Positions 27,896 through 60,056 of a stretch of 64,000 nucleotides of DNA are shown in pieces. The translations under genes and the position numbers were made by a program. The notes under the pieces are model-generated. The model had not been told where the DNA came from and did not search any database. It worked only from the letters and a program-made list of their open reading frames with translations. Location: positions 49,029,385 to 49,093,384 of the forward strand of contig NC_088295.1 in the NCBI RefSeq assembly GCF_032854445.1. Direction: 5' to 3'. Position 1 is the stretch's first letter. Every line of letters begins with the position of its first letter. The DNA comes from Liolophura sinensis. Taxonomy: Eukaryota; Mollusca; Polyplacophora; Chitonida; Chitonidae.

Positions 27896-29175
27896 ATGGA
27901 CCACCTGGACATGTGCAAGGTGTCCCTGCTCCTGGTAGCGAGACTGTTATCAACACTGGCGGCTTCACGAGGTAAACAGACAATTAAGTCGTGTTATTGA
28001 GTATATGAGTTAACTGGAAGCTGGATCTCTCAAATGCGCCGAGAGTAATGCGTTATATGCTCTTGAGTTAAACAAAAAGCTGACACAACTTTGTTCTCAT
28101 TGGTTCGTCTACTGTTTTAATGTAAATACGCTTTTCATTTGGCTGGAGCTTCAAATCAGATTTGCCATGTACCTTGCTAAAATGAAATAGCCTTGGATTA
28201 TTAAACCCCTGTCAAACAAATAAATAATTTTTTTTAATACTACTATGTTTGGATTGACATTCTGGATGTAAGTTTTCATCGGTATTATAGAATGCTTACT
28301 TAGTAATGATAAGTTTGGATAAAACGACAAACGTAATAAAACTACGAAGTAACTTCATCTATTCCATAGCCGACCGGTCTTTGCTAGTTTTGCAAATTCT
28401 ATAAGATGGGTACATATTTGCGAATACACCAATGTAAGGGTAACCTATTATTATGATTTATCTTCCAGATTTGATTCATGGTCCACTGATGTTGCTTTTA
28501 TTTTCACAGCCGACACAAGATGGACATATATATGCGAAAGCACCACAGTGACGGTGGCCTGTCCGGAGAGACACCTTTTCAACATAAATGATGTATTCAC
28601 AGCTTATAATGCAGAATTCTGTCCCAGTAACCTGACTGATCCGGTGTACTCTGTTGCTGATTGTTATGAGTCTTTCTCTGCAAAAGGGCAGTTTATATCT
28701 AACACACGCTTCCGGTGTAACGATAAACGTTTTTGTGACCTTGACTTTGACTCATCTGTTCTCCAAATATGTGCTACTTCCAGTACGGCCAACTTTTTAG
28801 CCGTCAGTTACACATGTTACAGGGGTGAGTATATATACAATATACTTTATGACTTCTACTCTACTCAACAAAGTTAATGTTATGGTCTCCAATAATGTAC
28901 TGATAATAGCTTATCGTTTTGAATTTTATGCTGGAAAAAGGATTTTAATATCTAACACACCCTCCTTGTGTAACGGTAGACGTTCTTGTGATGTTAGCTT
29001 TGGAGAATCTATCATGCTGATATGCACTGTTGTCCCTGTGGCCAACTTTTTGGCCGTTCGTTACATGTGTTATAGCGGTGATATATGTCAAATTGTCTCA
29101 GTACCATCGTGTCAAGATTTGGGAACTGCCGTTTTTCGTTGTGAAATGGAAGCCACCGACCACTTTAGTGCATGA
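27896..29175 (+). CDS. Gene B0: short, probably secreted SUEL-lectin-like protein
   Basis: Exon 1 is 27896-27971 (MDHLDMCKVSLLLVARLLS..., donor GTAAAC). Exon 2 is 28510-28824, 315 bases, phase 1 at both ends, with a complete 8-Cys lectin-like domain (DTRWTYIC ... VACPERHLFNIND ... RCNDKRFCDL ... YTCYR). A possible exon 3, 28910-29175, encodes the second half of another such domain and ends in TGA, overlapped by AATAAA (29175-29180). The three join in frame to about 218 residues with no membrane segment. The exon 3 acceptor (TAATAG) is weak. If exon 2 reads through its donor, the protein ends ...EYIYNILYDFYSTQQS at 28877. No stalk, membrane or tail exon follows before the next unit's promoter cassette. 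Ligand binding is unproven: the canonical YGR and DPC motifs of rhamnose-binding lectins are absent. Confidence 0.55.
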
Positions 29176-29786
29176 ATAAATACATTGATAAATGCTGATA
29201 TAATACATGTGCTTATAGTACTGAATGTGTCAAGAATGGAATAAAAAAGACATTATAGTGTTTTAGATTTACAAATGGGCAACTGACTTATCACGAAATA
29301 TAAAGTGATTTATTACATCTGTATTTTGAGCGAACTTTTTTTTCTGGATTTTGATTCCTTTCTTTGTGCAATTGTACTCTGTTAGAACGGTATTAAATAT
29401 ATCTTCGTTGGTTCTGTGGGAATTGCATTATTCTTCCCATAGAGCAGCTTTGAGTTATTCAGATTGCTTGCTGACTCATTCCCAAAGTATTCCCCCGGGC
29501 TGCCGATAGGTTCCAGTCTATAATTAATCCGTGCCTTGAATCGAGCTCTTACTTATTCAGCTGTGGTTTAAATTAAATATTCTGGAGACCAACAATGGAA
29601 GTTACACATTTTTAATTTAAAATATGGATGTACGTGTTATTCTACATCTGTCTTGCACAATGCATACTAAATGATGCAACTCTGCTTCACTGCAGTGGCT
29701 AATATACGTTTTTCACAAAAGTGTTGCTAGGATGCATTTTCGTGATTAGGTTAATACCTCAATTTGTCATCCCTACATTTTTACAG

Positions 29787-30276
29787 GGGATATAAGATGG
29801 TTACATATATGCACATACACCGTAGAGACGGTAACGTGTCCGGAGAAATACATTTTCGACATAAATGACCTATTCATAGCCTATAAACCAGAATACTGTC
29901 CCAGTAACCTGACTGATCCGGTGGACTCTTTTGCTGATTGCTGTGTGTCTTACACTGGAAAAAATATTGCTATAGCAGAGACGCTCTACTGATATAACGG
30001 TAGTCGTTCTTGTGATATTATATTTGATGGAGCTATCCTCCAGGCGTGTGATACTTCCAGTACGGCCAACTTTTTGTCCGTCGGTTACACGTGTTACAGT
30101 GGTGAGCTAGCTTAATTAAACTCAATATCCACTTGCCCGAGAGTTTTATATCTAACGCACGCTTCGTGTGTAACGATAGTCGTTCTTGTGATATTAACTT
30201 TGGCCAAGCTATCTTACAGATGTGTGCTTCCAGTAGGACCGCATCTTTAGTCGTCAGTAACACGTGTTACTGTGGT
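29787..30276 (+). pseudogene. Decayed lectin-like domain exons downstream of B0
   Basis: 29787-30101 keeps acceptor (TTTACAG), donor (GTGAGC) and the exact 315-base length, and reads GDIRWLHIC ... TVTCPEKYIFDIND, but an in-frame TGA at 29990-29992 replaces the region of the conserved RCN cysteine. About 30140-30271 is a further half-domain (SFISNARFVCNDSRSCDI...). Both are followed by the same 'ggtgagctagcttaattaaa' sequence (about 30101 and 30273), showing a local duplication of about 172 bases. Confidence 0.6.
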
Positions 30277-30499
30277 GAGCTAGCTTAATTAAATTCAATA
30301 TCCATATGCCAGACCTCTACCCAGCAGAATTATGCCATGGTTATCAATAATTCACAAAGTGCATTTATCTGTCTTCAATGGGGAAGCGAAACATATTTGA
30401 ACGGAAAATAGAATGTTTCAAATCTATAATAGCAATGTTCATATTACATGTAACACATGCTGTTCGGAAAGTACAAAGTGTATATGTATATTTTGCTTT

Positions 30500-31724
30500 C
30501 AGCCAAAGGTTTGTGTAATATAATATGTATTCTACCATTCTGAGGAAATTAAGGATCAGTTTCAGAAAGAGAGACCAAGTCTGTTTCCTGTTCTCATGTA
30601 TTAATTTTTTTTCTTTTAGTGTTTGATTGTTTTTACATCGTGTACAGGGTGAGATTTCATTGAAAGTTTTAATATTACCATTATATTAATGCCTTTTATC
30701 TTTATGGAAACTGAGTTGTCTGTGATGTACTCAGTAAAGTTACATATATAGAATACCATTCTAGCATGTAAACTGCATTATCTATAAAAACGTGTGTATA
30801 TGCCCATAAAACAGTCTGCATTAAAATAAGAAACTTTGACCGCCTTGTACACAAATATGCAACGTAAGTCATATTAAGTGAATGATGAAGTGTCAAATGA
30901 ACGAACATAAAGCTCCCAGAAAACAGATAAACCTGGACCCCAATTCAGATCGCGAACAAGAAGGTGAGATAAAGGTCATCACCAATCCGCATCATGTGAC
31001 TGCTGCTCGCACCTTTCTCTAAGCTATGATATCGTAAGCTGTACAATAGAAAGCTGAATGTTCGACAGTGTAAGGAGACAATTTCTGGATGGTTTCAATG
31101 ATTATGTCATTGTGTGCAACTTTACATTCAGTTGTCTGAAGTTGGATAAAGTATTATTACCTACACGTTCGTGCATTCATTTGTTCACACAGACAAAACA
31201 TGCGATCTCAATACTGGCTGACAACCTGTTCGACGATGAATTCTAAAGCCTTTCCCCTTCTCTTTAATTGGTGGTTACCCAACTGAAAACGCATTTAGCC
31301 GTGTGTGACAAAAGCATGTGTATGTTTGAGGCCGGTATGTTGTACCAATCCTACACAGTCTGTCAGATACGTCATCATGATGTATGTACATGGTTTGCAT
31401 ACAAGTTCATGTAGTCTTCCATAACTGAGGTCGTCGTCATATGACTGAAAAATTGTTGAGTACGACGTTAAACCCCAAGCACTCACTCACCATAACTGAA
31501 GCGGATAAAATACAGGCATGGGTCTGATTTAAGTGTTAGTTCCATGCATGGTGCGCCTTGACAGTGAGCTGTACTGGACTCTAGATTAACTCCATCAACC
31601 ATTCTTCATCTAGAAGAAAGATTTGCATTACATATATATGAGCCAGAAGACTAGAGTTTTACAACAGTTTTGCTTAAATTCTCCGGAATGGTTCAGATGA
31701 CGTAAAGACTGACCTATATATAGC
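30500..31724 (+). promoter_or_regulatory. Duplicated upstream cassette, now separated from gene B2
   Basis: Aligns base for base along most of its length with about 26600-27742, the DNA upstream of B0, including CAGATGACGTAAA (TGACGTAA at 31698-31705) and TATATATAG (31715-31723). After the TATA-like box the match stops and resumes only near 36990, just before the B2 first exon; the retrotransposon lies between. A type-2 SINE tail (31428-31490) interrupts the cassette and is absent from the B0 cassette. Around 31230-31300, 'gaattctaaagcctttcc' is also shared with the region upstream of gene C (about 44812). Confidence 0.6.
31428..31490 (+). repeat. Type-2 SINE tail fragment
   Basis: 'gtcgtcatatgactgaaaaa', then 'ttgttgagtacgacgttaaa' and 'ccccaagcactcactcac'. 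It is inserted in the upstream cassette relative to the copy at 27480-27540. Confidence 0.6.
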
Positions 31725-31791
31725 AGTCGGTGTGTTCTTGGGACGTTTCATTCTGGAGGTTATTCAGTAGAAGCCAATTAAGATATCTTAC

Positions 31792-32102: not shown

Positions 32103-32174
32103 TTCTCCCCTGCTTCATGTTCGACGCTTCGACGAACTAACACCCTTTTCTGCAATATTTTAACGTCTAATACT

Positions 32175-33139: not shown

Positions 33140-34162
33140 GTCATAGATCTCTCTTCGGCGAAGCGCCTCACGTTCTGTTTTCGCAGAGACTGACGCAAAC
33201 GATTCCTTTATTCGATGATAATGATCAGCAACCCAGTCATCAACACAGAATGTATCCTGTTCTTCCATTCCCAATAAACTGTCTACTGGCAGTCCAGGAT
33301 CTCTGCCAAAGAATAGATAGAATGGCGACTACTTTGTGGATGAATGAGATGTGCAGTTGTATGCATACACAAGTTCGGGAAGGTACCTTGGCCACTTTGA
33401 CTTCTTTTGAGGCGGGAATGAACGGAGAAGGTCATGCATGCTCCTAATGAAACGTTCGCAAGCACCATTCCCCTGAGGGTGGTAGGCAGTGGTGCGACCC
33501 TTGGTCACGTTTCAAATAGAACAAAGTTGCTTTATCACTTCATTTTCTAAGTTCCTGCCCCAATCGATGTGAATTCGGCCAAACCGGAGAAACCATTCCC
33601 TTACTAGAATTCTTGCAACTGTCGGATCCGGAGTGGCCACAGCTTGGGTGTATTTGGTAAACACGTCCGTGTGAATCAACACGTTCTCCATTCCACAGGA
33701 CTTCTCCAATACTGTAAAATCGATAGCCAATATCTCTAAAGGTCTCTGGGCAGTAAGAAAACCCAGCGTTGGTCTCACCTTGGTCCCTGCCTTGGACAGA
33801 GCACATCTGCGACAGGTTCTGCAGTATTCCAGAACATCAGCCGTCATTCCAGGCAAATAACACCTCGAATGCAACAACTCTAAAGTGCGTTCAGTTCCCT
33901 GATGTCCGGACTTGTCGGGAATTTCCGTTAAAACTTGTTCTCGCAAACAGAGAGAGAGGAATAGCTGTCTGGTTTTAAGTCCATCTTTCCGCATCTTCCG
34001 GAACAGAACTCCATCAACTTCCTGAATCCTGTCCCATGACTGCACCAACTTACGAACCAACTTAGGTTCCACCTTTAGTTCACCCTTGGTTGGCCTGCGT
34101 TTCAGTGCCCAATAGTGATGCCTCCTACAAAGAAGGGGATCATCCAGTTGAAGCCTCTTCAT
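33140..34162 (-). pseudogene. Retrotransposon: integrase (H2C2 zinc finger and catalytic core)
   Basis: 34162-33512 is an open stretch with the H-x-C-x2-C region (GHQGTERTLELLHSRCYLPG ... CRTCRRC) and the start of the catalytic core (LEILAIDFTV with an Asp in the first catalytic position, then DVFTKYTQAVATPD). Beyond 33512 the frame changes; 33480-33140 on the same strand continues with the ELVYAYN and SPFYLFFGRDPGLP hallmarks, split by shifts and stops. It is a fossil of the integrase that inserted the element; no active product is expected. Confidence 0.7.
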
Positions 34163-34374
34163 GGCCTGAGGCTATATAGTAGGTAGTGTTGACACAGGTA
34201 GAGGGTCGGTCTTGCAGGAGAGAGCCTAAACCTCCTAGATCCAGTTATCTGATATAGTTTCCTGTAAACTGTTATAAATCTCCATTGGCATTGATGTCCT
34301 AATGTTGACAGGTAAGCTATCCAACATGGTTTCCTCCAGTCGAAAGGATTCCTTTCCATGGTCTAGCTTCCTGC

Positions 34375-34690
34375 TTAGGGCATCGGTGTTCTTGTTGCTC
34401 CTGTCAGACCTGTACTTAATGGTAAAGTCGAATTGTGCAAGAGCAGCTGCCCAACGTGATTCAGTGGCTCCAGTTTTGCAGTAGTCCTTAAATAACTCAG
34501 AGGATTACTGTCAGTATACTTGAGGCCAAGTAACTCCAGTTTCATGCTGCTATAGCCTTCCATGGACTTTTCACTTCCACGGAGTCCTCTGCTAGTATAT
34601 GCAATGACAACGTTCCTGTCTCTCTTTTGCTGGGAGAACACTGCTCCAAGTCCATAAAAGCCAGCATCAATATCTAGTACATCTGATGAA
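34375..34690 (-). pseudogene. Retrotransposon: RNase H domain
   Basis: Reads LDIDAGFYGLGAVFSQ, then IAYTSRGLRGSEK and MKLELLGLKY, the usual order of a gypsy RNase H (first Asp of the catalytic set in DID/A). It follows directly on the RT fragment, in a different frame, after a deletion. Confidence 0.65.
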
Positions 34691-35328
34691 AGTTGCCGGC
34701 GCGTTACATAGACCGAACGGCATGCGCTCATATTCATAAAGACCACCTTCCCCAACCGTAAAGGCGGTCTTTTCAACATCAGCAGGATCAACGGGTACTT
34801 CATGGAAGCAACGTGCAAGGTCCAGACGACAGAAGTATTTTGCTCCACTGAGGACTTGCAGTGCCTCCTGAATCCTGGGTAGTGGGTAGGCATCTTTCTG
34901 TGTCTTGGCATTCAGTGCACGGTAGTCCACACAAAGTCATCGACTGTTGTCCTTTTCCTCACAAGCACAACTGGTTACCCAAACGGGATGGTGGACTTTC
35001 TGATGATCCCTTTGCTTGAGCGCTGTCTTCAGATAGTTACGCACCTATGTGGTACTCGGACGGGTGCATTGTCACTTAATACGATGCGGTGGGATACTTC
35101 GTCACAGCAGCCAATGTCATCATCTGAAACGCTAAACGCTTCCACATGCCTGGACAGCAGACCCTCCACAACCTCTTGCTGGATCGAAATCAATCCATTG
35201 CCAAAACTGATCTTCGGTACAATGTTCCGCAATAAAGATGCATTGGCAGATATTTCATTCACATATACTTCACAGTTACACACATGGCTAATTTCAACAT
35301 CAGGGTGAGGAACACAATCTCTTAACAA
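34667..35328 (-). pseudogene. Retrotransposon: reverse transcriptase N-terminal part
   Basis: The 35328-35029 frame leads into RT (LLSRHVEAFSVSDDDIGC ... EVSHRIVLSD). The 34930-34667 frame holds DYRALNAKTQKDAYPLPRI, LDLARCFHEVPV, KTAF and YERMPFGLCNAPATF. The stretch then runs straight into RNase H. The YxDD box, thumb and connection are absent, so about 150 or more codons were lost by deletion with a frame change near 34690. Confidence 0.7.
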
Positions 35329-35879
35329 ACAAATGACAGTCCGGGCTGCAAATAGACATCAGAGTCAATAAAATTTGCTATCTGAACCGGTACATAACCA
35401 TTACTACCTACGGTTACCTACGATGGGCCCAGGGCTAACCCATTAGGCAATGGCCCTACGTGACAATCTGAATGTTCTATCAGCCCATTACACCGGAATC
35501 CTGCCTTGGCAGCTCTAGTCGAACCATCAATCACAACAACAGATCTAAGTGGGATTCTCACAGGTTTTCTGCCTCCAACTCTGTAGACCTTTCCAGTACA
35601 GTTATCCTCAGTCAGCATTATTTCACTCTGTAAAGCAAGAACATTGGCCAATATAATCTGAGAATTATTAACAAGTCTCTGAAGGAAACTAGGACCATCT
35701 GTTTCTCTGAAACACTCTAACATGCATTTAAAAATGTTACAACCTATAACAGCAGGACAGTCTGTTTTACGACTTGCCATAGTCACTAACATGGCATTTG
35801 ACCACAAGAAATCCCATCTGCGGAAACGTTCTGTCTAGGACAGTCAGGTCAAACTCAATCCAGTCCTTGTGGTACATCG

Positions 35880-35985
35880 AGGAGTTCCCCTTCGAGGTAC
35901 TCCCTGAAAAACGATTTAGTTGCAATCGATATCTGTGCCCCTGTGTCTAGAAGACACTTTACCTTACATCGACCTAACTCCACAA
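35880..35985 (-). pseudogene. Retrotransposon: aspartic protease active-site fragment
   Basis: On the - strand one frame reads ELGRCKVKCLLDTGAQISIA, the retropepsin DTGA signature, and ends at a stop at about 35860. This frame differs from the gag frame ending at 35974, as expected for a separate or frameshifted gag-pol junction. The stretch 35807-35418 downstream of it is open but has no recognised motif. Confidence 0.6.
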
Positions 35986-36560
35986 TTGCTTCTGGACACC
36001 GTCAACTGCTTTACTCAGTACTGAGCCCTGACGCACCTCACCTGCTGTGTAACTCTGATTTAAACCCTGCGACGAAACCTTCACCTGGGTGTTAGCTGGA
36101 GTGTGGGTGGGACAATTCTTACCGACGTGACCTGGTGCCCAGCAGTTCCAACAACGACGTGGTTTCTTACCACGAATAGCATTGGAGATGTTAGCAGCGG
36201 AGCGGCTGGCAATTTCCTTCAGCAGCCTCTCTATCTGATTTTGCTGAGCAGCAAGTTGCTGGCCCTGCTGACGGATTTGAGCCAGGGTATCATTTTCGTT
36301 TCTCATGGTCTCTTGAAGTGTCAACTCCTTAACCTTGACCGGTTTCAGCTCATCATGGCCAAGCCACTCTTGTGCACGGTCACACATATCAAAGAAGCTG
36401 AGTCACTCAGAGTGCATGTTAAGTCGACGAATTTCTCTTCGAAGACCTTCATCACAAACAGCCTCTGCTAACCGCCCTTTCAAGGTTGCCTCGCGACAGT
36501 TTATGAATGAGGGCTCTAGCAGAATAATCTTGTCAAACAAGTCAAGAAGGTTCAGGGAGC
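35974..36560 (-). pseudogene. Retrotransposon: gag with CCHC zinc knuckle
   Basis: The 36387-35974 frame contains a Gln-rich helix and CWNCWAPGHVGKNCP, a C-x2-C-x4-H-x4-C nucleic-acid-binding knuckle. The same frame extends upstream past one stop to about 36560 (KIILLEPSFINCREATLKG, LRREIRRLNMHSE). There it meets the LTR directly, so the primer-binding site and the gag N-terminus are deleted. Confidence 0.65.
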
Positions 36561-36564
36561 ATGT

Positions 36565-36850: not shown

Positions 36851-36991
36851 ACTAAATTCAGCCTTATTTACATTACGCAGGAGTATGTGCATCTGATACA
36901 GAACATTTGCAATAATCAAAAATGCACAAATGGTATTAACTTGCCACGAGTTTTGACTACTGCCAATGGACGGGAGATATGATCCACTGTG

Positions 36992-37154: not shown

Positions 37155-37508
37155 ATGTGCAAGGTGTCCTTGCTTCTGGTAGCGGGACTGTTATCAGCGC
37201 TGGCGGCTTCTTTACGTAAACAGACAATTAATTCGTGTCACTGAGTACCTAAGTTAAGTGGAAGCTGGATCTATCAAATGCGCCAAGAGTGATGCGTTAT
37301 ATGCTCTAGAGTTAAACAAAGAGCTTACACAACTCGTCTACTGCTTTAATATAAATGCGGCTTTCATTTGGCTGGAGCTTCAAATGCAGATTTATTAAAC
37401 CCCTGTCTGCTATTTTTAGATTAACAATCTAGATGTAAGCTTTCATCGATATTATAGAATGCTCACTAAGTAATGCCATCACTCTTTGCTAGTTTGCAAA
37501 TTATATAT

Positions 37509-37539
<31 letters not shown>

Positions 37540-40500
37540 TTTGATTGGTGTTTAACGCCGTACTCAAGAATATTTTACTTATACGACGGCGGCCAGCATT
37601 ATGGGGGGGGGGTGGAAACCGGGCAGAGACCGGGGGAAACCCACCACCATCCGCAACTTGCTGACAGACCTTCTCACTTACGGCCGGAGAGGAAGCCAGC
37701 ATGAGCTGGACTTGAACTCACAGCGACCGCATGGGTACATATATGGGAATACACCAATGTAAGGGTAACCTATTATCATGATTTATCTTCCAGATTTGAT
37801 TCATGGTCCACTGATGTTGCCTTTATTTTCACAGCCGACACAAGATGGACATATATATGCGTAAGCACCACAGTGACGGTGGCCTGTCCGGAGAGACACC
37901 TTTTCAACATAACCGATGCATCTCTGGCTTATAAAGCAGAATTCTGTCCCAGTAACCTCACTGATCCGGTGGGTTCTGTTGCTGACTGTTATGAATCTTA
38001 CTCTGCAAAAGAGAATTTTGTATCTAACACTCGTTTCCGGTGTAACCGTAGTCGTTTTTGTGACCTTCACTTTGACCAAAGTGTTCTCCAAACATGTGCT
38101 ACTTCCCGTACGGCCAACTTTTTAGCCGTCAGTTACACATGTTACAGGGGTGAGTATATATACAATATACTTTCTGACTTCTACTCTACTCAACCAAATT
38201 AATGTCATTGCCTCCAATAATGTGCTGATATTAGCTGATCGTTTTGAATTTTATGCTGGAAAAAGGATTTTATATCTAACACACCCTCCTTGTGTAACGG
38301 TAGACGTTCTTGTAATCTTAGCTTTGACGGATCTATCATGCTGATATGTACTATTGTCCCTGTGGACAACTTTTTGGCCGTTCGTTACACGTGTTATAGC
38401 GGGGTGAGTTATGTCAACTTGTCTCAGTATCATCGTGTCAAGATTTGGGAATTGTCGTTTTTCGTTGTGAAATGGAAGCCACAGGCCACTTTACTGGATG
38501 AATAAATACATTGATAAATGCTAGTATAATACATGTGCATATAGTACTGACTGTTCCAAGTACGGGGTAAAGAAGACATTATAGTGTTTTCGATTTACAA
38601 ATGAGCATCTGGCCTATCAAGAAATAAGAAGTGCATTATCACATCTGTATTTTGAGCAAAGTTTTTTTTCTGCATTTTCACTCCTTTCTTTGTGCGATTG
38701 TACTGTGTTACAACGGTACTAAATATATCTTCCTTTGTTCTCGGGGAATTACAGTATTCTTCCCATAGAGCAGCTCTGAGTTACCTGAATGGCGATGGCT
38801 ATAATCCCGGATTCATATTTCTTGCTGACTCATTCCTAAAGCGTTCCCCCGGGCTGCTGATAGGTTCAAGTCTATAATTAATCCGTTCATCGAATCTAAC
38901 TCTCACTTATTCAGCTGTGGTTTAAATTAAATTCGTGGCCAAAATATGCTTCTTTGTTCATTGGCCAACCGAAAAGTTTTTTTAACCCCCCCCCCCCAAA
39001 ACAATAACAATAGCGCCTGTGTAGGCTAACCGACATATGTCCATGGTATGCTTCTGCTATTTCTAAACATAAAATCGGTTAAATTATGTAAAACACCGCT
39101 GTTACAAGTGCCATCGCAGTCTGGTGAATTTCCGGAAAATATTGTTTGTGGCCTTTTCAGTACATCTTTTCAATCTTTTGCCTATTGTTAGGTATTATCC
39201 TTTGTGTTTTCAGTATATTTTCCCTGCTTACCCTCCAATGCATTTTGACTAGTACATTTTCACTACCGGTACGTAATATCTGATGCCTTTTCAGTATATG
39301 GTGTTTGGTGGCTTTCTGAATATTAGAAAGGCAGCAACGTTTCCTACTAGATGACAACACAATATTCTTTTGGTCGTCAATTTTCCCTCAGATCCGAATG
39401 CTCCTACAACTACCCAGTCAACAACGACTCCAAACAGTACAGTCCCGGCATTCTCAGAGACTACAAGAGCCGCTTCTGCTACAGAGCCTTTACCATCCAC
39501 AAGTTAGTGTCTTCATTCTTTTCGTTACCGAATTTTCTATGATTCGTGCAGGACTACGCTGGTATTAAAGGGACATTCGGCTGACGTCGAAAATATGTGC
39601 TGTTATTTTAGACGTAATCTATATAAAGCTCAGGCTTCCAGGTTGTTTCGAGGTTTCCCATCGACCACCAATTCATTCAAGTCGCTGTATTTGGAACACC
39701 TGATGTTACCCCCATTTGTTGTCTAGACGACGGGAGATGTTCAGCAAACTTGAAATGTCAGACACATTATTGTGTTGTAATTATGCGGTCTACCAAGCAT
39801 CTTCTGTTCTACCGTGCAGATCATTACGAATTAGAAATACTTTCAGTCTTTGGCACTGTTTACTTGTTCGATCCACGGGCGAACGTTGCATCTGGTTGGG
39901 TGGACAGTTTAATCCAGTGACGGATTTCCCATTGTAATTCTTTCAACAGATTTTTCGGAAAATATAGGCCTAGGAGGTTTAGTTAGGATTCAAATGCAAC
40001 TCATTTTTGCACATAGCTAAACCAAATTCTGAATTTCTTTCAGTCGTAGGTCGGAAATGTGTCTGTTTTGACCCTCGATGGCGCTCAGGTGTTTAATGCT
40101 ACAAAGTTCATAACTCCCTTCCCTTCCTGTTTCAGTTCCGATCGCTGTTGTAGCTGTAGCAGTACTGATGGGACTCATCCTCCTCGTATCTATCATTATC
40201 TACCGAAAACGGTAAGTCTTGCTCTACCATCTGTATCCGATGAAATAGTTTTCGACAGGTTTTGCTGCTTACATGGTTACTAAGTAACATGATACAAAAA
40301 TACATGGTGTCAGTAACCCTCACATTGGTCGACGCATCAGCCGATAAATAATTTCCATATCCTATCACCAAGTAACCATGTAACGTTTTTATACCCGAAC
40401 AAAGGGAGATAACCTAGTCAGTAGGCAGATATAACGTCGTCTACAATGTATTATTAATGTCTCCCACGTGACCGATGCTGTCCAATGGAAAGTGGAGTAT

Positions 40501-41682
40501 CTTGTCTCAAGCGGATAATCTCCTATATTTGTGCTGAGTTAACCTGAAAGATTGTGCAGTACAACTGAAGTTATCATTTATACATTAGAAATTTAAATCG
40601 TGTTGTTCACCCTTGTTACCTGTAGAGCTTGTTATATTTATTTATTCATTTGATTAATGTTTAACACAGTATTCAAGGATATTTCACTTATACGACGGCG
40701 GCCAGTATTATGGTGGGAGGAAACCAGGCAGAGATCAGGGGAAACCGACGACCATCCGCAAGTTACTGGCAGACCTTTCCGCGTACGGCTAGAGAGCAAG
40801 CTAGCATGAGCTAGCTGACTTGAACTCACAGCGATCGTATCGGCGAGAGGCTCTTGGTCATTGCGCCGCGCTGGCGTAGTAATCGCCTCCGCCACAAAGG
40901 CCTCCGAGCTTGTTATAATGTTGTAATGACTTAAGATTCATTATTTATTTGATTGGTGTTTCACGCCATAAAGAATTTTTCACTTATAACATAGCATTAT
41001 ACTTTATTGTAAACCCCAGTGCCCGGTGTAAACGGCCTACCTTTCCCACGAACCGCTCCATACGTCTTAAATGGACGTTGTACTTCGCAAAGGGCCAGGC
41101 AAGCGTTATCGATGGCTTATCGCCAAGACAACACAAAAAGTGAGCGGGTTCAAATCATGTCCGTTCCAGGGTTTGCACCCGCACCTCTTGTGTCTTAAAC
41201 TTTCAGGCAAGCTTAATTTATTTAAGGTCATACAGCTTAATATCTTGGAAATATTACTGTTTGAATTATAAGTGTATGCAATATCGTGTATAAAGATGAC
41301 AGAGTTCTTACATTTGCAATGCATTCCACTGGCCCTGATGCCTGATGGCAGGTACTGTTTGGTGTTTTACAGACGCAACCGACGGGTCAAGAGTGTAGAA
41401 CGTCTGGGAGCCCAGGAAGAGAGTGTCACGTATTGCAACGTGCAAATAGATAACTCGCCCATCCCCCCAGTTCTAGGTGACTCTGACTTGAGCACTAACA
41501 TACCAGCCATATCTACAGAAAGTGAGGAGCCCCAACCTACGTCAGATTACGAGGGCATCTCGTCACAGAATGAAATGCCTTTCAGAGAACACAACTATGA
41601 GAAGATTAGCGTCAGCAACGAGACGTCGGCATACACCAGTATGGCCTTCACCCCTGATTACGTCAATGCTGAAGGGTATTGA
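37155..41682 (+). CDS. Gene B2: complete single-pass SUEL-lectin-like receptor with tyrosine-rich tail
   Basis: Five exons: 37155-37215 signal peptide (MCKVSLLLVAGLLS...); 37835-38149 lectin-like domain with 8 Cys; 39392-39502 Thr/Ser/Pro stalk (PNAPTTTQSTTTPNST); 40136-40211 membrane helix (PIAVVAVAVLMGLILLVS) with YRKR stop-transfer; 41373-41682 tail ending TGA. Lengths 61, 315, 111, 76 and 310 sum to 873 bases, 290 residues, with all phases agreeing (1,1,1,2). Tail tyrosines: VTYCNV and SDYEGI (both fit the ITIM consensus; the first is also YxN), HNYEKI, AYTSM, DYVNA (YxN). The ATG used by B0 and C reads AAG here, so the start moved to the in-frame downstream Met. A broken half-domain (about 38243-38400) sits in intron 2, a type-1 SINE in intron 1. 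AATAAA at 41925-41930. Signalling through SH2 proteins is inference from the motifs; the fold call is by cysteine pattern, not a profile search. Confidence 0.78.
37500..37740 (-). repeat. Type-1 SINE with (TTTA)n tail in intron 1 of B2
   Basis: About ten TTTA units at 37503-37541, then 'gattggtgtttaacgccgta', the core, and the head-proximal 'agctggacttgaactcacag' (the reverse complement is B-box-like). Absent from B0 and C, so it inserted after the duplication. Confidence 0.75.
38243..38410 (+). pseudogene. Broken lectin half-domain in intron 2 of B2
   Basis: Corresponds to B0 exon 3 (28910-29060) but lacks one A in 'ttttatatc' (B0 'ttttaatatc'), so the phase-1 frame hits a stop at about 38342-38344. 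A donor-like GGGGTGAGT follows at about 38402. An AATAAA at 38501-38506 matches the B0 polyadenylation signal, so an early-terminated transcript is conceivable. Gene C has lost this piece at about 46990. Confidence 0.55.
39735..39937 (+). pseudogene. Cys-rich remnant in intron 3 of B2
   Basis: Matches 19668-19862 in B1. Here one frame is open to 39937 (LEMSDTLLCCNYAVYQ ... CLLVRSTGERCIWLGG). In B1 this sequence directly continues a lectin-like exon start, so it may be the second half of an old domain exon. No splice sites support its use. Confidence 0.25.
40627..40915 (-). repeat. Type-1 SINE, near full length, in the last intron of B2
   Basis: Same insertion as 20469-20735. It includes 'cgacggcggccagtattatg' and the reverse complement of the tRNA head ('ttgcgccgcgctggcgtagt ... 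aggcctccgag'). Confidence 0.75.
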
Positions 41683-44730: not shown

Positions 44731-44734
44731 CTTA

Positions 44735-45695: not shown

Positions 45696-48600
45696 ATGGA
45701 CCACCTGGGTATATACAAGCTGTCGCTGCTGCTGGTAGTGGGACTGTCGACGAAACTGGTAGCTTCTCAGAGTAAGATTTCATCATTTCTTTTTATGCCA
45801 AAAACTATCTGACCTTAAAGATGGCGGTCAATATGCTGTCATATTCTTGAAACATAACTGTCCTGATGTAAATTGCCATCTGTCTTACACTGTCTTACAA
45901 TATTGTATTTCACCTAAATTTTGGTATGTAAAAATGTACTTTCGGTTGCATATAAACACCGTAAACTGATTCCTTTGATGCAAAGCTTAAGTTTTGCCAA
46001 TAAAAAATTAACAATACGTTGAGTGATCCGATAAGACAGATGACTCAATCAGAATGAAGCAAAAAGTGTCACGTGAGAAAAGCTAAACTTAAGGTGAAAT
46101 AAAGTATCATTTAGCTTTGAATTGTGACTTCCCAACTGTTTCATACAACAAAGTTCTAACAGGTTTTCCTTTCCGCCATTGCAATAACGAGCGTACAACC
46201 GTCGTGTAAATGAAACCTTCTTGAGTAAAGCCCTGTTTCCATGGACATACAATTACTTGGCGCATTCGTCACTGTTCTCTTCAAGGCCCCTGCGTTGACA
46301 ACTGTATTTCCCTGTATAATCTAATACCTCCATCAAACCACCCCAGCAAATCCTTTCCAATGGTTTAAAATGGGTCATATTTCATTGGCTCTACATTCCA
46401 GCTTGTGTTGAAGAAACACCGCAGCGTACCTTATGTTATGAATTATCGTGCGAGTAATCGCAAAGCAATTGCCAATCCGTGGAAACAGCACATTGGGTGT
46501 TAACTTTAAATCCAGTACACAAATGTACGTGTTTCACTTCCACAAAATCTGAAGTGCCTTGTATTCTATTTGGTTATAACAAAACTCTATTTATGTTTAC
46601 AGACGACACAAGATGGACATATATATGCCTAAGCACCAATGTGACAGTGGCCTGTCCGGAGAGACACCTTTTCAACATAACCGATGCATCGGTAGCTTAT
46701 AAAGCAGAATTCTGTCCCAGTAACCTCACTGATCCGGTGTACTCTGTTGCTGATTGTTATGAATCTTACTCTGCAAAAGAGAATTTTGTATCTAACACAC
46801 GCTTCCGGTGTAACGGTAGTCGTTTTTGTGACCTTCACTTTGACCAAACTGTTCTCCAAATGTGTGCTACTTCCAGAACGGCCAACTTTTTAGCCGTCAA
46901 TTACACATGTTACAATGGTGAGTATATATACAAAATACTTTCTGACTTCTACTCTACGCAACAAAATTAATGTCATGATTTCCAATAATGTGCTTTCCAA
47001 CATCTTACAAAACTGTGCTCATTTATCTGTTATAAATAATAAAATTAGCTAAATTAGATAACACTTCGATATTACAAGTACAGTTTTGTTTGCTGTATTT
47101 CCAGAAAATATTGTTTGCCGTCGTTTCAGTATATGTTTTCTCTTTCCTTTTTATTAAGTATTATCTCTTGTCTTTTCAGGACACTTTTACGTGTTGCTCC
47201 TCTACTTCATTTTGATTCGAACATTCTTACTATCGTTTATCAATACCTGATGCCTTTTCAACATATGGTGTTTGGTGGCTTTATGAATATTAGGATGACA
47301 ACAACGCTTGTTAACAGATGATAAAACAATGTTATTTTGATCTTTAATTTTCCGTTAGATCCGAATCCTCCTACAACTACCCAGTTAATAACGACACCAA
47401 ACAGTACAGTCCCGGCATCTCCACAGCCTACAACAGCCGCTTCGGCTACAGAACCCTTCCCATACATCAGTGAGTTTCTCTCTTTATATGTATAGTTTTG
47501 AATGTCTTGCTATACTTCCATATAAATTCGTTAAATAAAGAGAACAAATGATGATTATTGTCTGTCGACTTGTGTGAAAGTGACCGCTTCATTTGATGGA
47601 TCCTCTGGAAAGGCCACCAATGAGAAGCCCAGTTGATTCGCCTGCAATTTCTTCACAGGTGGTTTTCTCCAGGATTCGCCAATCTTTCTTCATTCAGTAA
47701 CTTGAAACCCATCATACAAGTGAAATGTTTGTCAGTTCGACGTATAACACCAATCAAATTCTGTAATTCATGTTTCAGTATACCAAATAAGTCAGAGTGG
47801 GCTTTGTGCGAGAGTGTTGTCTAAAACTTCGATTTGTCCTTTTCGACAAATTCCAATCTTGATTCCTCCACCCACCAATCTTAACATCGGTTCTATGACG
47901 TTAATACCTTCATGTTAATGGCTCCTTTTAGGAAAAAAATCTTGTTTATGGCCTTAAATAACAGTCAGAAAATTTAATAAGTAAATAATGGCTCGTCAAC
48001 TTGCTGAGTGCAAGATCTTCTTGACACTTTGTCAAGTTTGCACATAATACCTCTGTCACATTTTAAATCACATTTTGGACAATCCCCACATATGTTCGTC
48101 CATCCATCAATGTTAGACGGTCAGAGGGGCATTGTTCCTGGGTTATTTATTGCCCAAGTATCATTAAAAGTACAAGTGTACCTAGGCCTTATGACCATAA
48201 TATGGCTGAAGTATGGCCAATGTGTTGTTCAACTCAAAGGATCCCTTCATTCCTTGCTGTTTCAGTTCCGATCGCTGTGGCGGCTGGAGCTACTCTGGGA
48301 CTTATTCTAATCATCTGTATTATAATCTGCTGTATATGGTAAGCTGCGCAGTAGAAGTTTTCATGCTAATCTCATTCCAGGGGAACATCAGTTCTGATAT
48401 CAGTTTTCATTTGCATACATTTCATCCGTGGAAAGAAATTGCGGCATGTTAAACCTTATATTATTACTTTGTTGTGTTTTTTGCAGTATGTTGCTGTTTG
48501 TTTTTGTATGTTTGTCTTTTTCTTTTTTTTTTTTTTGAATTTTTCCTGAGCTTATTCTGAGCACAGATATTATCGGCAACAATGAATCAAAAACTGTGCC

Positions 48601-49642
48601 AATACTGTCAACAGGAAGAGTCCTTTTAGGGGTGAAGTTCAAGTCGTGCTTTAATAGACTTAACATTTAAAATAGTTCAGATTTTACTGTTGAAAACATT
48701 AAGTGTGTTTCGATGTTTTGTCAAACCAGGATTGCCACATTCTAAAAACTAATCTCGTAAATTTAAAATCAAGCTTTTTCTGAGTGACCTCACAATAGAT
48801 TGTTTTTTGAACATAGTATTATGTTACAGACAACGCAGTATCCTTTGCATCGACAAAAGAACAAGACCTGTAAAACATAATAGTTTGTAGCGATATGCCA
48901 TCTCTCAGAAAACATAGCCTGTCATTTTAGCAGATTATTTTCTAGTGTGCATTCGACTGCTTTGCCGTGTTCTGTTGCTTCAACATACCTATTGTTTCAC
49001 AGGCGTAACCGAGGCAACACGAGTATAGATCGTCCAGATGTAAGGAAAGAGAGCGTCACAGAAGTGAACATCGTCAAGAGAGGTGACGACAACAGGGTGA
49101 AAACAGCGCCCAGATTCAAAGAGGATTCCAACTGGAACCGTCCTGATCTCACCCCCAGCACTTTTGACGACAATGGACAAGTAGAAAATCCACCCTACCC
49201 TCAAGGCCTTTACGCGCTTCCTCATAAGAGCGCTAAGGCGGCAGTCGTTACCATAGAGACGGAGGAGCCCCAACCGCCTTCTCATTACGAAACAGTCTCA
49301 CCCGAGAACGAGACGTCTCCGGGAAAGCCTCTAATCAGACAGAACTATGAAAAAGCTAAGCTGAGCAACGAGGGTTCAACCTACACCAACGTGGCTTTCA
49401 CCCCCGATGACGTCAGTGATGACGAGGTTTTTCACGATTCCGATAAAAACTCTCCTCCTGGCGGAAATCGCGTCAGATTTGCTCCCGACGACGAATACAC
49501 CGGCAGAGGGAGTCCGGACGGTAGTCATTCTGAGCAGGTCACACTGCGCGAGGGTCTCTCCGAGGACAGGGACAAGGTGATCAGTGGAATGTACGCTAAG
49601 GTTAATAAGCAAGGGGCACAACTAAAAGAGGACCCTATGTAA
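45696..49642 (+). CDS. Gene C: complete single-pass SUEL-lectin-like receptor with long ITIM-like tail
   Basis: Five exons: 45696-45771 signal peptide (MDHLGIYKLSLLLVVGLS...); 46603-46917 lectin-like domain, 8 Cys (RWTYIC, VACPERH, FCPSN, DCYES, RCNGSRFC, MCATS, YTCYN); 47359-47469 Thr/Pro stalk; 48266-48338 membrane exon (PIAVAAGATLGLILIICIII); 49003-49642 tail ending TAA. Lengths 76, 315, 111, 73 and 640 sum to 1215 bases, 404 residues; phases 1,1,1,2 all agree. Approximate residues: signal 1-25, lectin-like 26-130, stalk 131-167, membrane 168-191, tail 192-404. Tail motifs: NPPY, SHYETV, NYEKA, STYTNV, EYTGR, MYAKV. AATAAA at 50536-50541. An adhesion or recognition receptor signalling by tyrosine phosphorylation is the inference; ligand unknown. 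YGR and DPC motifs typical of rhamnose-binding lectins are missing. Confidence 0.82.
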
Positions 49643-55218: not shown

Positions 55219-58200
55219 ATGCGTTCAATCGTGTTTTTGCTTTTGCTGATTTCTTGGGCACTCCTTTGTGTCAGTGGTCAAACAACGACACCAGGTGAGT
55301 GCTCAAATCTGTCGAACAACAGCCAAGTATTCTGAATCTATCATTCACTACATATATACATTGTCGACGATTATCCCATTAGTTTTTTTTACCTTAGCAT
55401 TTATCGTTCACTAAACATCTGTAGCTTGTGTATGGTATCAATTACACCAGTGCCACTTCTAAAGAAACAGATAAATGCTTCCGTAAGTCGCGATAGTCCT
55501 AAGTGGTACGAGAAGATGCGTGGTTTTGTGTGATATAGCTTCATCTACAACGAATTGGCTCCTGTGTTTGTGATTACAGTCCAATGTATGACTAAAAGGC
55601 TTGTCGTTTATGCCCATACAAATAGACTAGTGTTTGTGTAATATCAATCTAATGTTGTATGGACTGGGTTACGGTTTATGTCCCATAGCCTCACGTTGTA
55701 CTTTTGCGCTCATTTATTCACATGATTATAGGCACGTGGATTTCGCAATATCATTTCTATGTAGTACGAATACACTCATGTATTGATGATAGGCCTACGT
55801 ATGATGGTAGGCCTATGTATTAATGATAGGACTATTTATGGCACATTTCATAGTGTTTTTACGAATTGACAATTTCTTCTTTTTTTCTTTTTTTTTGGAA
55901 AAAGAAAAAATGGAAATGAAAAAATTGTGTTGAAGTCGCACAGCTTATTTTAAACCAAGGAAAGTGAAGAGTATTCCCCACACACACAAAAAAATGTACA
56001 AGTAATACGCAAAAAACATATTATAGTATTACCCTTATGATTGTGTTTATTCTCTTGGTCAGCAAGTCTAGAGAAATGGACATACACGTGCCAGTCCAAA
56101 CTCGCCAAATGTCCAGTCGGCTTTGAGGTCGCGGTGGATGAGCTGTACATGACAACAGATCGCAACTGTCCCACGGAAAGTCCCGTACTTGGACCATGCC
56201 AAGTGCGCATGAACGTTATAATACTGGCTATGCAGCAATCTCTGTGTAACGGTGTGCGAGTGTGTAACATCATTGATGTGAGCGGTTATCAGACAGAGTG
56301 CGGCATTACCACATTTGGGATCATTATCTACCGCTGTAACTTCGGTACGTATACAGCAGAAGAGCTTTGCTAACGTCGAAGGTGGAGCTAGCAGAGCGAG
56401 TGTTACAGCATACAAGCAAATGATTTTTATAGACGCGCGAGTATGCATTTATGTTTTCTTTCTGTTTCTTGTGATTCAGTTTTGTCGTACACTAATGGCT
56501 TATATTTACAAGTCTGCGTCAAATATTCGTTCACATATCCAGAAATATTTATTTATTTATTTATTTGATTGGTGTTTTACACCGTACTCAAGAATTTTTC
56601 ACTTATACGACGGCGAACAGCATTAGGATGGGAGGAACCGAGCACAGCCCGGGGGAGACCCACGACCATCCGCAGGTTGCTGGAAGACCTTCCCACTTAC
56701 GACCGGAGAGGTATCCAGAAATAGATGAAAAAGTCAATGGAATGCCCATCGCAAGACCTTGTAAGACAATAGCCCAATTTTCGTCGGGTTATTTATAGAG
56801 TCGTAATGCAACAAAACTACGATGTCTCTTCATTATTTGCTTTATTTGACAGGTGAGTTGATAATTCACTTTCAAGTAATAATTAACAACAAATATTTTT
56901 GATTCGGGTCATTCTGAAATTACCAACGCTGGTTGAGCCTCCTACATTGCCTCAATTCATACAACTACAGCTCTTGATGAATGAGATCGGAAGTTCTAAT
57001 CCAGGTAACGTTAACTCAGTAGCTGCTTATAGTCAGGAGGTTTGTCTCATATCTGTTGTTTCACTGGTTAGTCTTTGGGCTATTGGGCGGTTTCCTCCAC
57101 CTGTTAATATGTACAAAGGAGAACCATTCTTAAGTACGTTGTGAATAACAAGCTGTCAAGCCTCTGTACAGCCTACATGTAATCATTAACTCGTATGATT
57201 GTCTTATCACAGATGGATACCCTCTCTTTACGGAAACCACACCCGTACCAACCTCCACACAGCGTGAGTACCGGTACAACCATATACATAGTCTGTATGC
57301 TTATAAATTGTTTGTGATAAATGATTATTGTCATTATAAATTATGGTTTATGCGCGTCATAAGTTTAACCAACGCTAATGCATATATGACAAACCTATTT
57401 AATGTAAAATGTCTGGAAGCAATCGACATCTTGTCGTTAAAGCAAGGGATGGTCAGTTCTTGGTCAGTTGGTCAGTTCTTCCACAAGTTTTATGAAAACT
57501 GCTCTTAATTTCACAGGCAGAAGCCAAGTCACGTTGTAAAACTGTTTTAAATCAACAAATGCAATATAAACCATTACATATGAAATTAGATATAGAGCAA
57601 ATGTCCCGGGTTAAAGTCAAATTTAGGACGACAAATGACAAGTATATTCAGAATTACACAAACTGGCGCATCCATCAGCAAAGCGCAGAGGCCACATTCA
57701 TAAAATTTCGTACATCCAATTTGTACCTGTGTATTTTTAGGGGTAACAATTTCACTGTGTGTATATGAACAGCTTTATTTAAAGGCCCTATGACATGTTT
57801 GATTTCTGCTTAAAATATGCGAACATCAGTGTCTACCTGTATGTCATTTAAAAACTGAGTTTCAGCTGTGTTTTTCCGTTAAAATTGGAACCTGCTTATT
57901 GTTAGTTGTTAATCTTTTTTTCGCATTTTACGAGTGCTTTATTTTTCCTATAGATATCAGTGAATTGCAGATTCGAATGGATTTGGGGTTTTTTTCTTCT
58001 ATTAACACACTTCTTCAGTTTATTAGAGATTTGGTTTGACACAAGCCTACAAATATGTTTAATTCACCTTCTGGTCGTGGGGTTCCCTCGGGCTCTACCC
58101 GGTTTTCTTCCACCATGATACTGGCCGCCGTCGTATAAGTGAAATATTCTTGAGTACGGGGAAAGACACTAATGAAATAAATAAATAAATAATAGCCTTC

Positions 58201-59165
58201 TGAAGACAGAAAAGTTTTCATATCTGATATATCTACCTAAGCGCTCTAAAATATCACTTTCAAACCACTGTTCTATTGTAGCCACTCCCATGCCTGTTGC
58301 CAGCACTTACTGTGAGCCTGCTAATATGACCTGCCCTAGGGGACAACTGATTAATGTGATAGAAGTCCAATACGCAGCGAAAACCGTTCCGTGTGAGCAG
58401 ACGGCAGATGAGTGTTGTGCCTATGACGTCACAGATTGCGTACAGCGAGTCTCGGGTCCAATATTGAGCATTCAGCGAAATATTTGTCTCGACAAAGCCG
58501 CCTGCTCGTCTATAGATTTGACAGGCTATGTGATGTTCTGCAATGGAATGCAATATTTAAGTTCCTACGGTATTGTCCGGTACAGCTGTTACGAAGGTAT
58601 GCTGTCATTTTTATTCTGTTATAAAATTACCATGGTTCCCTGTCGTTGTCAGTCATGCTAAAAATACCGGTCTGTACATTTGCACGTGGAAAAGACTCTC
58701 TGAAGATTGATTTTAGGTCAACATTTTTCAGTGTTCACAAGAGTTCAAGCTCACGCGGCTTGTATTCTACAAATCGTTTTCTGTAATGACAAAAGCAAAA
58801 AATTACGTCTAGGATCATTCTTTAAAGTGGTAATCCTAATCACCTCATTTCTTTTTTTTTACTGTTCAAGTGAAAAAGCCAGTATATTTGATTGCCAGTG
58901 ATGTCTTCTCTGAACAGGTCCCACAACAACCATTGCAACCAAGGTGTCGAGGACGGCAACAACAAAAACACCTACGTTGAAAACGCCAACAACAAAAACA
59001 CCAACATCAAAAACGCTAACAACGACGACAATTAAAACAACAACAACATTGACACCTGAGACTCCAACGTTACCAACTGTCACCACTAGAAAGTCGACGC
59101 CTGTCTCTACGTGGGGTTATGTCTCGAATTTCAAACACCTACGTCACAACCGATACCTGGCTTGA
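55219..59165 (+). CDS. Gene D2: two-domain SUEL-lectin-like protein, frameshifted in the stalk (secreted as read)
   Basis: Exons: 55219-55294 signal peptide (MRSIVFLLLLISWALL...); 56063-56344 lectin-like domain 1, 282 bases, 8 Cys (WTYTC ... KCPVGFEVAVDELY ... LCNGVRVC ... YRCNF); 57213-57263 short Thr/Pro spacer, 51 bases; 58282-58596 lectin-like domain 2, 315 bases, 10 Cys (TCPRGQLINVIEV ... DCVQRV ... RYSCYE); 58918 onward, Thr/Lys-rich stalk (TKTPTLKTPTTKTPTSKT). All junctions are phase 1. Compared with D1 the stalk exon has a net loss of 4 bases near 59131 and runs into TGA at 59163-59165, giving about 323 residues with no membrane segment. Without the shift it would join the exon at 59980-60056. 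Either a soluble form or a recent null; a sequencing error is also possible. Neighbour of gene C, as D1 is of gene A. Confidence 0.65.
56546..56725 (-). repeat. Type-1 SINE fragment in D2 intron 2
   Basis: (ATTT)n at about 56546-56566, then 'gattggtgttttacaccgta' and the 'cgaccatccgcaggttgctgg' core; same insertion as 7868-8050. Confidence 0.7.
58072..58195 (+). repeat. Type-1 SINE fragment before lectin exon 2 of D2
   Basis: Sister of 8905-9135; ends in AAAT repeats near 58178-58192. Confidence 0.65.
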
Positions 59166-59979
59166 ATGAGGACCGTGAGATTCCTGACAGCAGTAAGTAA
59201 CCGATGCTCTGATAAGGAATCTTGCTGGAGCAGAAGCAGATTGACACAAGGTCAACGAGCATTTGAGGAATATTCGTCTAAGAACATTTTCAGAAGTATC
59301 CAATATCCACAGGATTTGATTTCTAAAATTTATTTTATGGGTCATCTTGACCGTGTTAAGCATCGATGACGTTCCAAATTGTTTCCTTTTTGTTCCTCTA
59401 AACACTGTATGCACGCTCAGGATAGATCTTTACATGCATTAATAAACGTTACTCGATACAAAGTAATTTTGTGAATGGCCAAACATAAATTTAAGAAAGT
59501 TCTAGTGACTTTATGGATAACCAGCATTAAATGTGTGGACATCAACTCCTGTTTTAAAATTCATATATTTTAATGCGTGTAATTCTGTTCCAAAAATATT
59601 TAAAACTTGAAAGTATATTTCGGTATCGTAGACTGTTATTGACTGCATTGAGACTGAGCCTCTATTGAGCCTTAGACTGAATTTTACGAGACAGTACCCA
59701 TATTTAATTCAAGTCAAAAATTCAAACATAGCTACAATTCACATTTTTGCTCTAGGAATTAAGTATAATATTTTTACACTGATTATTTACTGCAGAACTA
59801 TGCACCAAACACAATATTAGTTTTTTCCGGTCTTATATATATTAGTCTTTTTTAAGCACGTGCAATTTATGATTAAAGTTAAGTTTTTGGTAAATACGAA
59901 CCCTGGAGGTCTAATCATTCTATCACAAAGATACATTGTCTCCTATTTGAAGTACTTAACTAAATACTTTCCGTTGCAG

Positions 59980-60056
59980 CTCATATTGTCGTCAGCCTGA
60001 TGTCCGGGGGATCACCATTAGGACTGCTGGGCACCATTCTTATCAAGTTAGGCTGA
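59980..60056 (+). pseudogene. Membrane/GPI-signal exon of D2, out of reach of the current frame
   Basis: Acceptor TTGCAG, then THIVVSLMSGG... about 24 hydrophobic residues and TGA at 60054-60056, identical in length to D1 10896-10972. It follows the stalk exon end at 59192 (donor GTAAGT), but the -4 shift puts the stop upstream. AATAAA at 60242-60247. Confidence 0.55.

Follow-up and report, generated by a model that had tools for sequence, protein, structure and literature searches.

A tandem cluster of receptor genes in the chiton Liolophura sinensis contains two receptor types, called here B and C, that appear from their sequences to be old and to have diverged long ago, and that nonetheless carry a nearly identical lectin-like outer domain. 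The cluster came to light in a stretch of 64,000 nucleotides (the window), contig C1 (NC_088295.1) 49029385-49093384. The available excerpt of the publication gives the species of the assembly as Liolophura japonica (PMC11068029), a name since corrected to L. sinensis (PMC12441733). Positions below are those of the window, the numbering being carried on to negative values or beyond 64,000 for features outside it, and features are on the + strand unless stated otherwise. C1 and C2 by themselves denote genes of the C type; the contig is always written contig C1.

B2 and C2 were each modeled as five exons, encoding a signal peptide, a lectin-like domain (315 bases), a Thr/Pro stalk (111 bases), a membrane helix, and a cytoplasmic tail:

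37155..37215, +, B2 exon 1, signal peptide
37835..38149, +, B2 exon 2, SUEL-type domain with 8 Cys
39392..39502, +, B2 exon 3, Thr/Pro stalk
40136..40211, +, B2 exon 4, membrane helix
41373..41682, +, B2 exon 5, tail
45696..45771, +, C2 exon 1, signal peptide
46603..46917, +, C2 exon 2, SUEL-type domain
47359..47469, +, C2 exon 3, Thr/Pro stalk
48266..48338, +, C2 exon 4, membrane helix
49003..49642, +, C2 exon 5, tail

The models have GT-AG splice sites, identical phases and no internal stops, and they predict proteins of 290 (B2) and 404 (C2) amino acids, bearing out the membrane helix and tyrosine-rich tail that an initial annotation of the window had given both types. The first ATG of B2 is mutated to AAG, and its model starts at an in-frame ATG five codons downstream. 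The best 19-residue Kyte-Doolittle mean is 2.91-3.27 for the helices of B2, C2 and a further gene, E2. The same five-exon, same-phase structure, with open frames, is found in B', to the left of the window, and in C1, which lies across its left edge. Judged by their frames, B2, C2, B' and C1 are four intact genes.

-2537..-428, left of the window, C1 exons 1-3
369..441, +, C1 membrane-helix exon
1075..1714, +, C1 cytoplasmic-tail exon, intact (C1, 404 amino acids)

The window sits within a larger cluster, at about contig C1:49005700-49099213, in which all receptor genes are on one strand. Genome-wide searches covered 609,464,459 bases in 632 contigs. Single proteins used as queries (C2 lectin, C2 tail, D lectin 2 and E2 lectin) gave at least 11, 5, 5 and 4 matches, respectively, at a threshold of E <=0.1, the counts being lower bounds, and all listed matches fall within contig C1:49005700-49099219. 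With the C2 lectin query, and C2 itself set aside, C1, B2, B' and B0 are 82-94% identical over 103-104 amino acids. A self-comparison of 124 kb (the window with 40 kb to its left and 20 kb to its right) reveals that a B-C-D-E unit occurs twice, at about -11.4 to 19.7 kb and 36.9 to 69.6 kb, the two units being mostly 90-97% identical, with some stretches at 80-87%. The cluster thus appears to have been made by duplication of this unit. Unit 1 comprises B', C1, D1 (broken) and E1 (cut, then followed by a B-type remnant, A), and unit 2 comprises B2, C2, D2 and E2. The stretch between them holds B0 and B1, which have one good and one broken lectin exon.

Homogenization of the lectin-like exon

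In paired receptors, ligand-binding exons are held in common while signaling exons are not. This prediction, a matched ectodomain exon beside diverged signaling exons, was set as a test, and the cluster passed it. In the four B-C pairs (B' and B2 against C1 and C2), silent-site divergence (dS) is 0.06-0.13 in the lectin exon and 0.15-0.32 in the stalk, as against 0.77-0.99 in the signal peptide, 0.91-0.94 in the helix and 0.95-1.12 in the tail. Fisher tests on silent sites, comparing the lectin exon with signal peptide, helix and tail combined, give P values from 1.5e-9 to 7e-14.

The near-identity is that of a short tract, one instance of which lies within the window:

B2 37822..38226 and C2 46590..46994, +, shared tract of 405 bases, 92% identical, with unrelated flanks

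It begins about 13 bases upstream of the lectin exon. In the comparison with C2 it stops about 75 bases past the exon (405 bases, 92-94% identical for B2 and B'), and against C1 it runs about 177 bases past the exon, into a half copy of the exon present in both genes (about 500 bases, 89-91%). In ungapped 20-base bins, B and C agree at about 92-96% of positions within the exon and at 3-9 of 20 bases outside the tract, whereas B' and B2 match at 17-20 of 20 on both sides, the outermost upstream bin excepted. Site patterns (tails left out) tell the same story. Signal peptide (61 bases), stalk and the helix exon's first 55 bases together yield 49 informative sites, every one of which groups B with B and C with C, none favoring either alternative grouping. 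Over the lectin exon and 71 further bases, three of eight do so (all three in the first 44 bases), the alternatives receiving three and two. Support in a tree of the lectin exon was 36-82, and the tree was not used.

We read these observations as gene conversion or exon replacement, probably at or after the duplication of the unit. The number of homogenizing events cannot be counted, and one exon replacement at about the time of unit duplication is possible. How far a lectin exon can diverge in this cluster may be gauged from B1, which has drifted to 56% identity with the C2 exon and acquired a stop. No clear positive selection was found in the lectin domain.

The initial annotation had one and the same 315-base lectin-like exon and signal-peptide exon joined to different C-terminal exons. 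The common lectin-like exon holds for B0, B2 and C2, in each of which the exon is 315 bases with phase 1-1, and for B' and C1 as well. It does not extend to D, where identity is only 20-31%, both between its two domains and with those of B and C. The common signal-peptide exon has to be given up, as dS between B-type exons (B0 included) and C-type exons is 0.50-0.99 and D has a signal peptide of its own.

Identity of the outer domain

The domain carried by the B, C, D and E genes is probably a distant SUEL-type domain. The B and C domains have eight cysteines each, as does D domain 1, and D domain 2 has ten. Seven cysteine columns are invariant in nine of nine domains, the eighth being out of register in E2. 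The SUEL-type family of Pfam, PF02140, which was the check proposed for the initial annotation, is matched by five of nine members, with a best E of 3.6e-4, but all listed bit scores (13.4-20) are below the cut-off of 31.4. When a profile made from the nine domains was compared with PDB, all four matches at E <=10 were to latrophilin-type domains, the best at 1e-4, in an alignment that spans nearly the whole domain with cysteines matched. A seven-row profile gave three matches, again all latrophilin-type (E 0.004). Two control profiles, in which the non-cysteine columns were shuffled and the cysteines kept fixed, gave three unrelated matches and none. The best of the former, to thioredoxin at E 0.021, is a gauge of how far an unrelated match can reach. 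The possibility that cysteines alone lie behind the latrophilin match is rejected by these two shuffles. It is because PDB matches were to latrophilins only, and were absent from the shuffled controls, that we assign the domain to the SUEL type. AlphaFold2, run on five domains from the window, returned a mean predicted local distance difference test score (pLDDT) of 36.7, presumably owing to too shallow an alignment, and the prediction was not used.

The assignment to the SUEL type does not bring with it the sugar-site motifs, which we take to be ANYGR and DPC..TYKYL. Their letters are present in the aligned latrophilin row, but they are absent in B and C, where [AV][SF][LVT]AY and xxC..TANFL stand at the corresponding places. 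Sugar binding of the classical type should therefore not be assumed.

A SUEL domain in one open frame lies 1.6 Mb away, at contig C1:47461715-47462336. It scores 34.9 bits, over the Pfam cut-off, and does not have the DPC motif. It possibly links the family of the cluster to classical SUEL domains.

Signaling tails and the case for paired receptors

The tails were compared with the definitions of the immunoreceptor tyrosine-based inhibitory motif (ITIM, [SIVL]xYxx[IVL]) and activation motif (ITAM). B tails (102 amino acids) contain the ITIM-consensus sites VTY(Y/C)NV and SDYEGI, as well as YTSM and YVN, and a pair of tyrosines at ITAM spacing. C tails (212 amino acids) contain two ITIM-consensus sites, SHYETV and STYTNV, as well as YAKV, and no ITAM:

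41548..41607, +, YEGI-x12-YEKI, ITAM-spaced pair in the B2 tail
49280..49297, +, SHYETV, ITIM consensus in the C2 tail
49376..49393, +, STYTNV, ITIM consensus in the C2 tail

All four intact B and C tails have two ITIM-type sites, and the E2 tail has none. Against shuffled tails, two such sites are unusual in B' and B2 (P 0.010 and 0.024) and in C1 and C2 (P 0.018 and 0.016), as is the ITAM-spaced pair in B' and B2 (P 0.005 and 0.010). The B-C alignment, at a silent divergence of about 1, shows three of the six tyrosines of the B2 tail (59, 75 and 87) unchanged. The distal B tail (residues 44-102), which holds the ITAM-spaced pair, has a single difference in 177 bases between B' and B2, against 19 in 129 for the proximal tail; farther out in the 3' flank, 67 of 985 bases differ (P 2e-4 against the distal tail). 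The motifs suggest opposite signaling by B and C.

A candidate partner for such tails is encoded in the genome, in the form of an SHP-2-like gene. The open reading frame with two SH2 domains at contig C7:35.497 Mb is nearest PTPN11 (SHP-2), with E 4.5e-74, and a phosphatase match adjoins it. At contig C9:22.23 Mb, SH2 and phosphatase matches occur as separate exons. The SH2-SH2 stretch on contig C7 (35496600-35498400) is in a single open frame of 162 amino acids beside phosphatase pieces, and it looks like a retrocopy of the exon-split gene on contig C9.

The interpretation towards which we lean, without great assurance, is that B and C are paired receptors, with a common ligand, different signals, and a lectin exon kept matched by conversion or exon replacement. 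They would be tandem single-pass receptors, each with one eight-cysteine SUEL-type domain outside the cell and a phosphotyrosine tail inside, and short conversion or replacement tracts would keep their lectin exons alike, so that both could bind one ligand through the matched domain. The two ITIM-consensus tyrosines of the C tail may recruit an SHP-2-type phosphatase. The B tail, with its ITAM-spaced YxxI-x12-YxxI and its ITIM-type, YxxM and YxN motifs, may recruit kinases or adaptors, alone or in balance. We infer that B and C would be expressed in the same cell, that their tails would be phosphorylated, that the signals would run in these directions, and that the receptors would serve in defense or in self/non-self recognition. 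A bolder form of the proposal is more doubtful, though conceivable: that this is an independent molluscan pair, activating (B, through the ITAM) and inhibitory (C, through the ITIM), built on a SUEL-type ectodomain that does not have the sugar-site motifs and with a recognition exon matched by conversion.

Several observations weigh against the paired-receptor interpretation. Since ITIM-type motifs occur in both tail types, opposite signs of B and C are not established, and the motifs of B' and B2 are not independent, because the genes are duplicates. Several motif patterns were tried, and the P values are uncorrected. The E2 tail has no ITIM, ITAM or Yxx[ILV], and the tyrosine spacing in the tail of remnant A is 16, which is not that of an ITAM. 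Set against the 300 bases of 3' flank closest to it, of which 9 of 294 differ, the distal B tail stands out only weakly (P 0.098). The ratio dN/dS in the lectin exon is 0.4-0.9 in the six pairs of the four intact genes, with no clear selection for sameness or diversity. The tract has no sharp limit at the exon border, as it takes in about 75 (C2) to 177 (C1) bases of intron 2. With regard to the domain, a PF02140 search of the whole genome gave five matches, none in the cluster.

Some of these points are what one might expect if B and C were unpaired adhesion or recognition receptors in tandem, subject to ordinary conversion, with tails that act alike (through SHP-2 or endocytic adaptors). Neutral homogenization is possible between neighbors on the same strand about 9 kb apart, as B and C are, and the intronic part of the tract, the partly homogenized stalk, and the two ITIM-consensus sites in both tail types are all in keeping with it. 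But neutral concerted evolution does not sit so well with a tract that starts so close upstream of the exon and spares signal peptide, helix and tail, nor with the different motif sets kept in the B and C tails, and we regard it as unlikely. Less likely still is that the genes encode gamete or cell-cell recognition receptors rather than defense receptors. Egg lectins contain SUEL domains, as do axon-guidance receptors such as EVA-1, which, in the accessible part of PMC4133157, is a single-pass receptor with two SUEL domains and a tail needed for function. That tail is short in the same excerpt, however, while those here have 102-212 amino acids with ITIM- and ITAM-type motifs, and the gain and decay of copies in the cluster would resemble that of immune receptor clusters. 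Finally, the two B-C-D-E units might be haplotypes misplaced in tandem by the assembler, in which case the family would be half as large. The long stretches of 90-97% identity (80-87% in places) could be taken in this way, in a genome for which the available text of PMC11068029 gives a heterozygosity of 1.24%. The divergence of the units, 3-10%, exceeds that value, and remnants A, B0 and B1 sit between the units, making this the least probable of the alternatives. The main result is independent of any false duplication, because B-C homogenization holds within each unit: copy number depends on the assembly, and the B-C result does not.

The paired-receptor locus supposed by the initial annotation therefore stands with respect to the homogenized ectodomain exon and the diverged signaling exons, and falls with respect to a common signal-peptide exon and, in this assembly, a working decoy (D, described below). 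Of the set of inhibitory, activating and decoy ends, what persists is that B and C tails differ in their motifs; no activating member with a charged helix and short tail was found among B', B2, C1, C2 and E2 (a comparison without the lectin-like exon F). The SUEL-type ectodomain is retained on the strength of the profile matches, despite Pfam scores under the cut-off and the missing sugar-site motifs.

The paired-receptor pattern itself is known; no precedent was found for a SUEL-type ectodomain in it. No Ig family appeared in Pfam scans of the ectodomain exons, and for this reason B and C are not members of the KIR, LILR, SIRP or Siglec families. Latrophilins, the only profile matches in PDB, are like EVA-1 membrane proteins with SUEL-type domains, but they are G protein-coupled receptors with seven helices, unlike the single-pass chiton receptors. 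EVA-1 differs in its two SUEL domains and, as excerpted, its short tail, against one domain and tails of 102-212 amino acids in B and C. By their predicted architecture, B and C are neither.

Closer in organization are the CEACAM genes of Xenopus and mammals, which, in the portion of PMC5112662 available, are clustered, with ITIM- and ITAM-bearing members that have the motif in their own tails, and in which gene conversion in Xenopus pairs affects only the ligand-binding exon with its splice borders. They differ from the chiton genes in having an Ig V-type domain rather than a SUEL-type domain, in the opposite orientation of the pairs (the chiton genes being all on one strand), and in that the chiton tract also holds 75-177 intron bases and opposite signaling in the chiton is suggested by motifs only. 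Siglec-11 and Siglec-16 (PMC5701461, in excerpt) likewise form a lectin-type pair with conversion-homogenized ectodomain exons and a broken partner allele. Theirs are Ig domains that bind sialic acid, and the tract covers several exons rather than the one in the chiton. Among invertebrates, the fester co-receptors of Botryllus and Alr of Hydractinia are encoded by recognition loci with ITIM/ITAM-type tails and haplotype clusters (PMC12065747, in excerpt). The Botryllus receptors have Ig-type ectodomains, and gene conversion goes unmentioned in that paper. Molluscs provide oyster CgIgIT2, an immune receptor with a membrane helix and an ITAM (PMC11999971), and the siglec CgSiglec-1 (PMC5877582), both with Ig ectodomains according to the parts available. 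Rotifers have SUEL domains in large membrane proteins, with no signaling motifs in the accessible part of PMC8878817. In the open-license PMC literature, no SUEL-type receptor with ITIM or ITAM tails, nor any conversion-matched SUEL exons, was recognized among the matches listed, and the B/C architecture (a SUEL-type ectodomain with such tails) is likely absent from print.

If the paired-receptor interpretation is true, the strategy of one recognition surface with different outputs, matched by conversion, extends beyond vertebrates and beyond Ig folds. In the bolder form of the proposal, the principle would have arisen independently of Ig and C-type-lectin folds. The locus would then offer, in a mollusc, a place for population tests of arms-race models (decoy mimicry, conversion rate, partner loss), and a domain family described chiefly in egg lectins and neuronal receptors would gain a signaling role.

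Remnants, D and E genes, and repeats

B0, B1 and the tail exon near 21 kb appear to be remnants:

20104..20171, +, remnant A, truncated B-type membrane-helix exon
21235..21555, +, remnant A, B-type tail exon, frame open
27896..27971, +, B0 signal-peptide exon
28510..28824, +, B0 lectin exon
28909..29086, +, B0, duplicated 3' half of the lectin exon
29777..30106, +, B1, diverged lectin exon interrupted by an in-frame TGA

B0 had been described as ending after one and a half domains, and a protein of that kind is rejected: the half domain represents a duplicated 3' half of the exon, such as follows the lectin exon in B0, B', B2 and C1. Its frame is open in B0, has one TGA each in B' and B2, and is split across two frames in C1. 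At the B0 locus, no stalk, helix or tail exon belonging to this gene was detected. Between the lectin exons of B0 and B', replacement changes outnumber silent changes, 31 to 5.

The D genes are present in two copies, both broken in the assembly:

6572..11002, +, D1, broken copy
55219..55294, +, D2 exon 1, signal peptide
56063..56344, +, D2 exon 2, first SUEL-type domain
57213..57263, +, D2 exon 3, short linker
58282..58596, +, D2 exon 4, second SUEL-type domain
58918..59192, +, D2 exon 5, Thr-rich stalk, frame broken
59980..60056, +, last exon of D, encoding a short and weakly hydrophobic end that lies out of frame in D2

The two lectin exons of D1 have deletions of 7 and 25 nucleotides, and nothing in D1 matches D2 exon 3. 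The stalk exon of D2 is four nucleotides shorter than that of D1, and a stop at 59163-59165 precedes the hydrophobic end, for which the best 19-residue Kyte-Doolittle mean is 1.68-1.82. The two lectin-like domains and Thr-rich stalk ascribed to D are thus present, while its hydrophobic end is weak and out of frame. A glycosylphosphatidylinositol-anchored or decoy role for D is rejected for the present assembly in view of its two broken copies and the weak hydrophobicity of the end. As it stands, D2 would be a secreted two-domain protein.

E is cut in unit 1 and whole in unit 2:

19575..19676, +, E1, lectin exon truncated after about 34 amino acids, cut at about 19.67 kb and joined to remnant A
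69528-69836, +, E2 lectin exon, whole, outside the window

E2 goes on to a Thr stalk, a helix at about 71.6 kb with a single Glu near its inner end, and a tail of 196 amino acids (exon borders by eye). The further lectin-like exon, F, lies at about -23.7 kb.

Between B1 and B2 there is a retroelement remnant on the minus strand (33512-36402), with matches to integrase, RNase H and reverse transcriptase and a weak match to a zinc knuckle. A short interspersed repeat (about 120-240 bases aligned) is present in several copies, at 37518-37732, 40629-40876, 56546-56718 and elsewhere, one of them within intron 1 of B2. Tandem arrays of 26-base and 22-base repeats occupy corresponding sites of both units and differ in copy number:

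11838-12494 (unit 1) and 60917-61652 (unit 2), tandem repeat arrays
13473-14101 (unit 1) and 62643-63909 (unit 2), tandem repeat arrays

Elsewhere in the assembly, contig C99 (108,685 bases) has seven cox1 matches spaced 15.4-15.6 kb apart, and an eighth match is on contig C632. These are tandem mitochondrial copies, perhaps an artifact of assembly. The mitochondrial order, cox1-cox2-tRNA-Asp-atp6, fits a mollusc, the proteins being recognized by eye.

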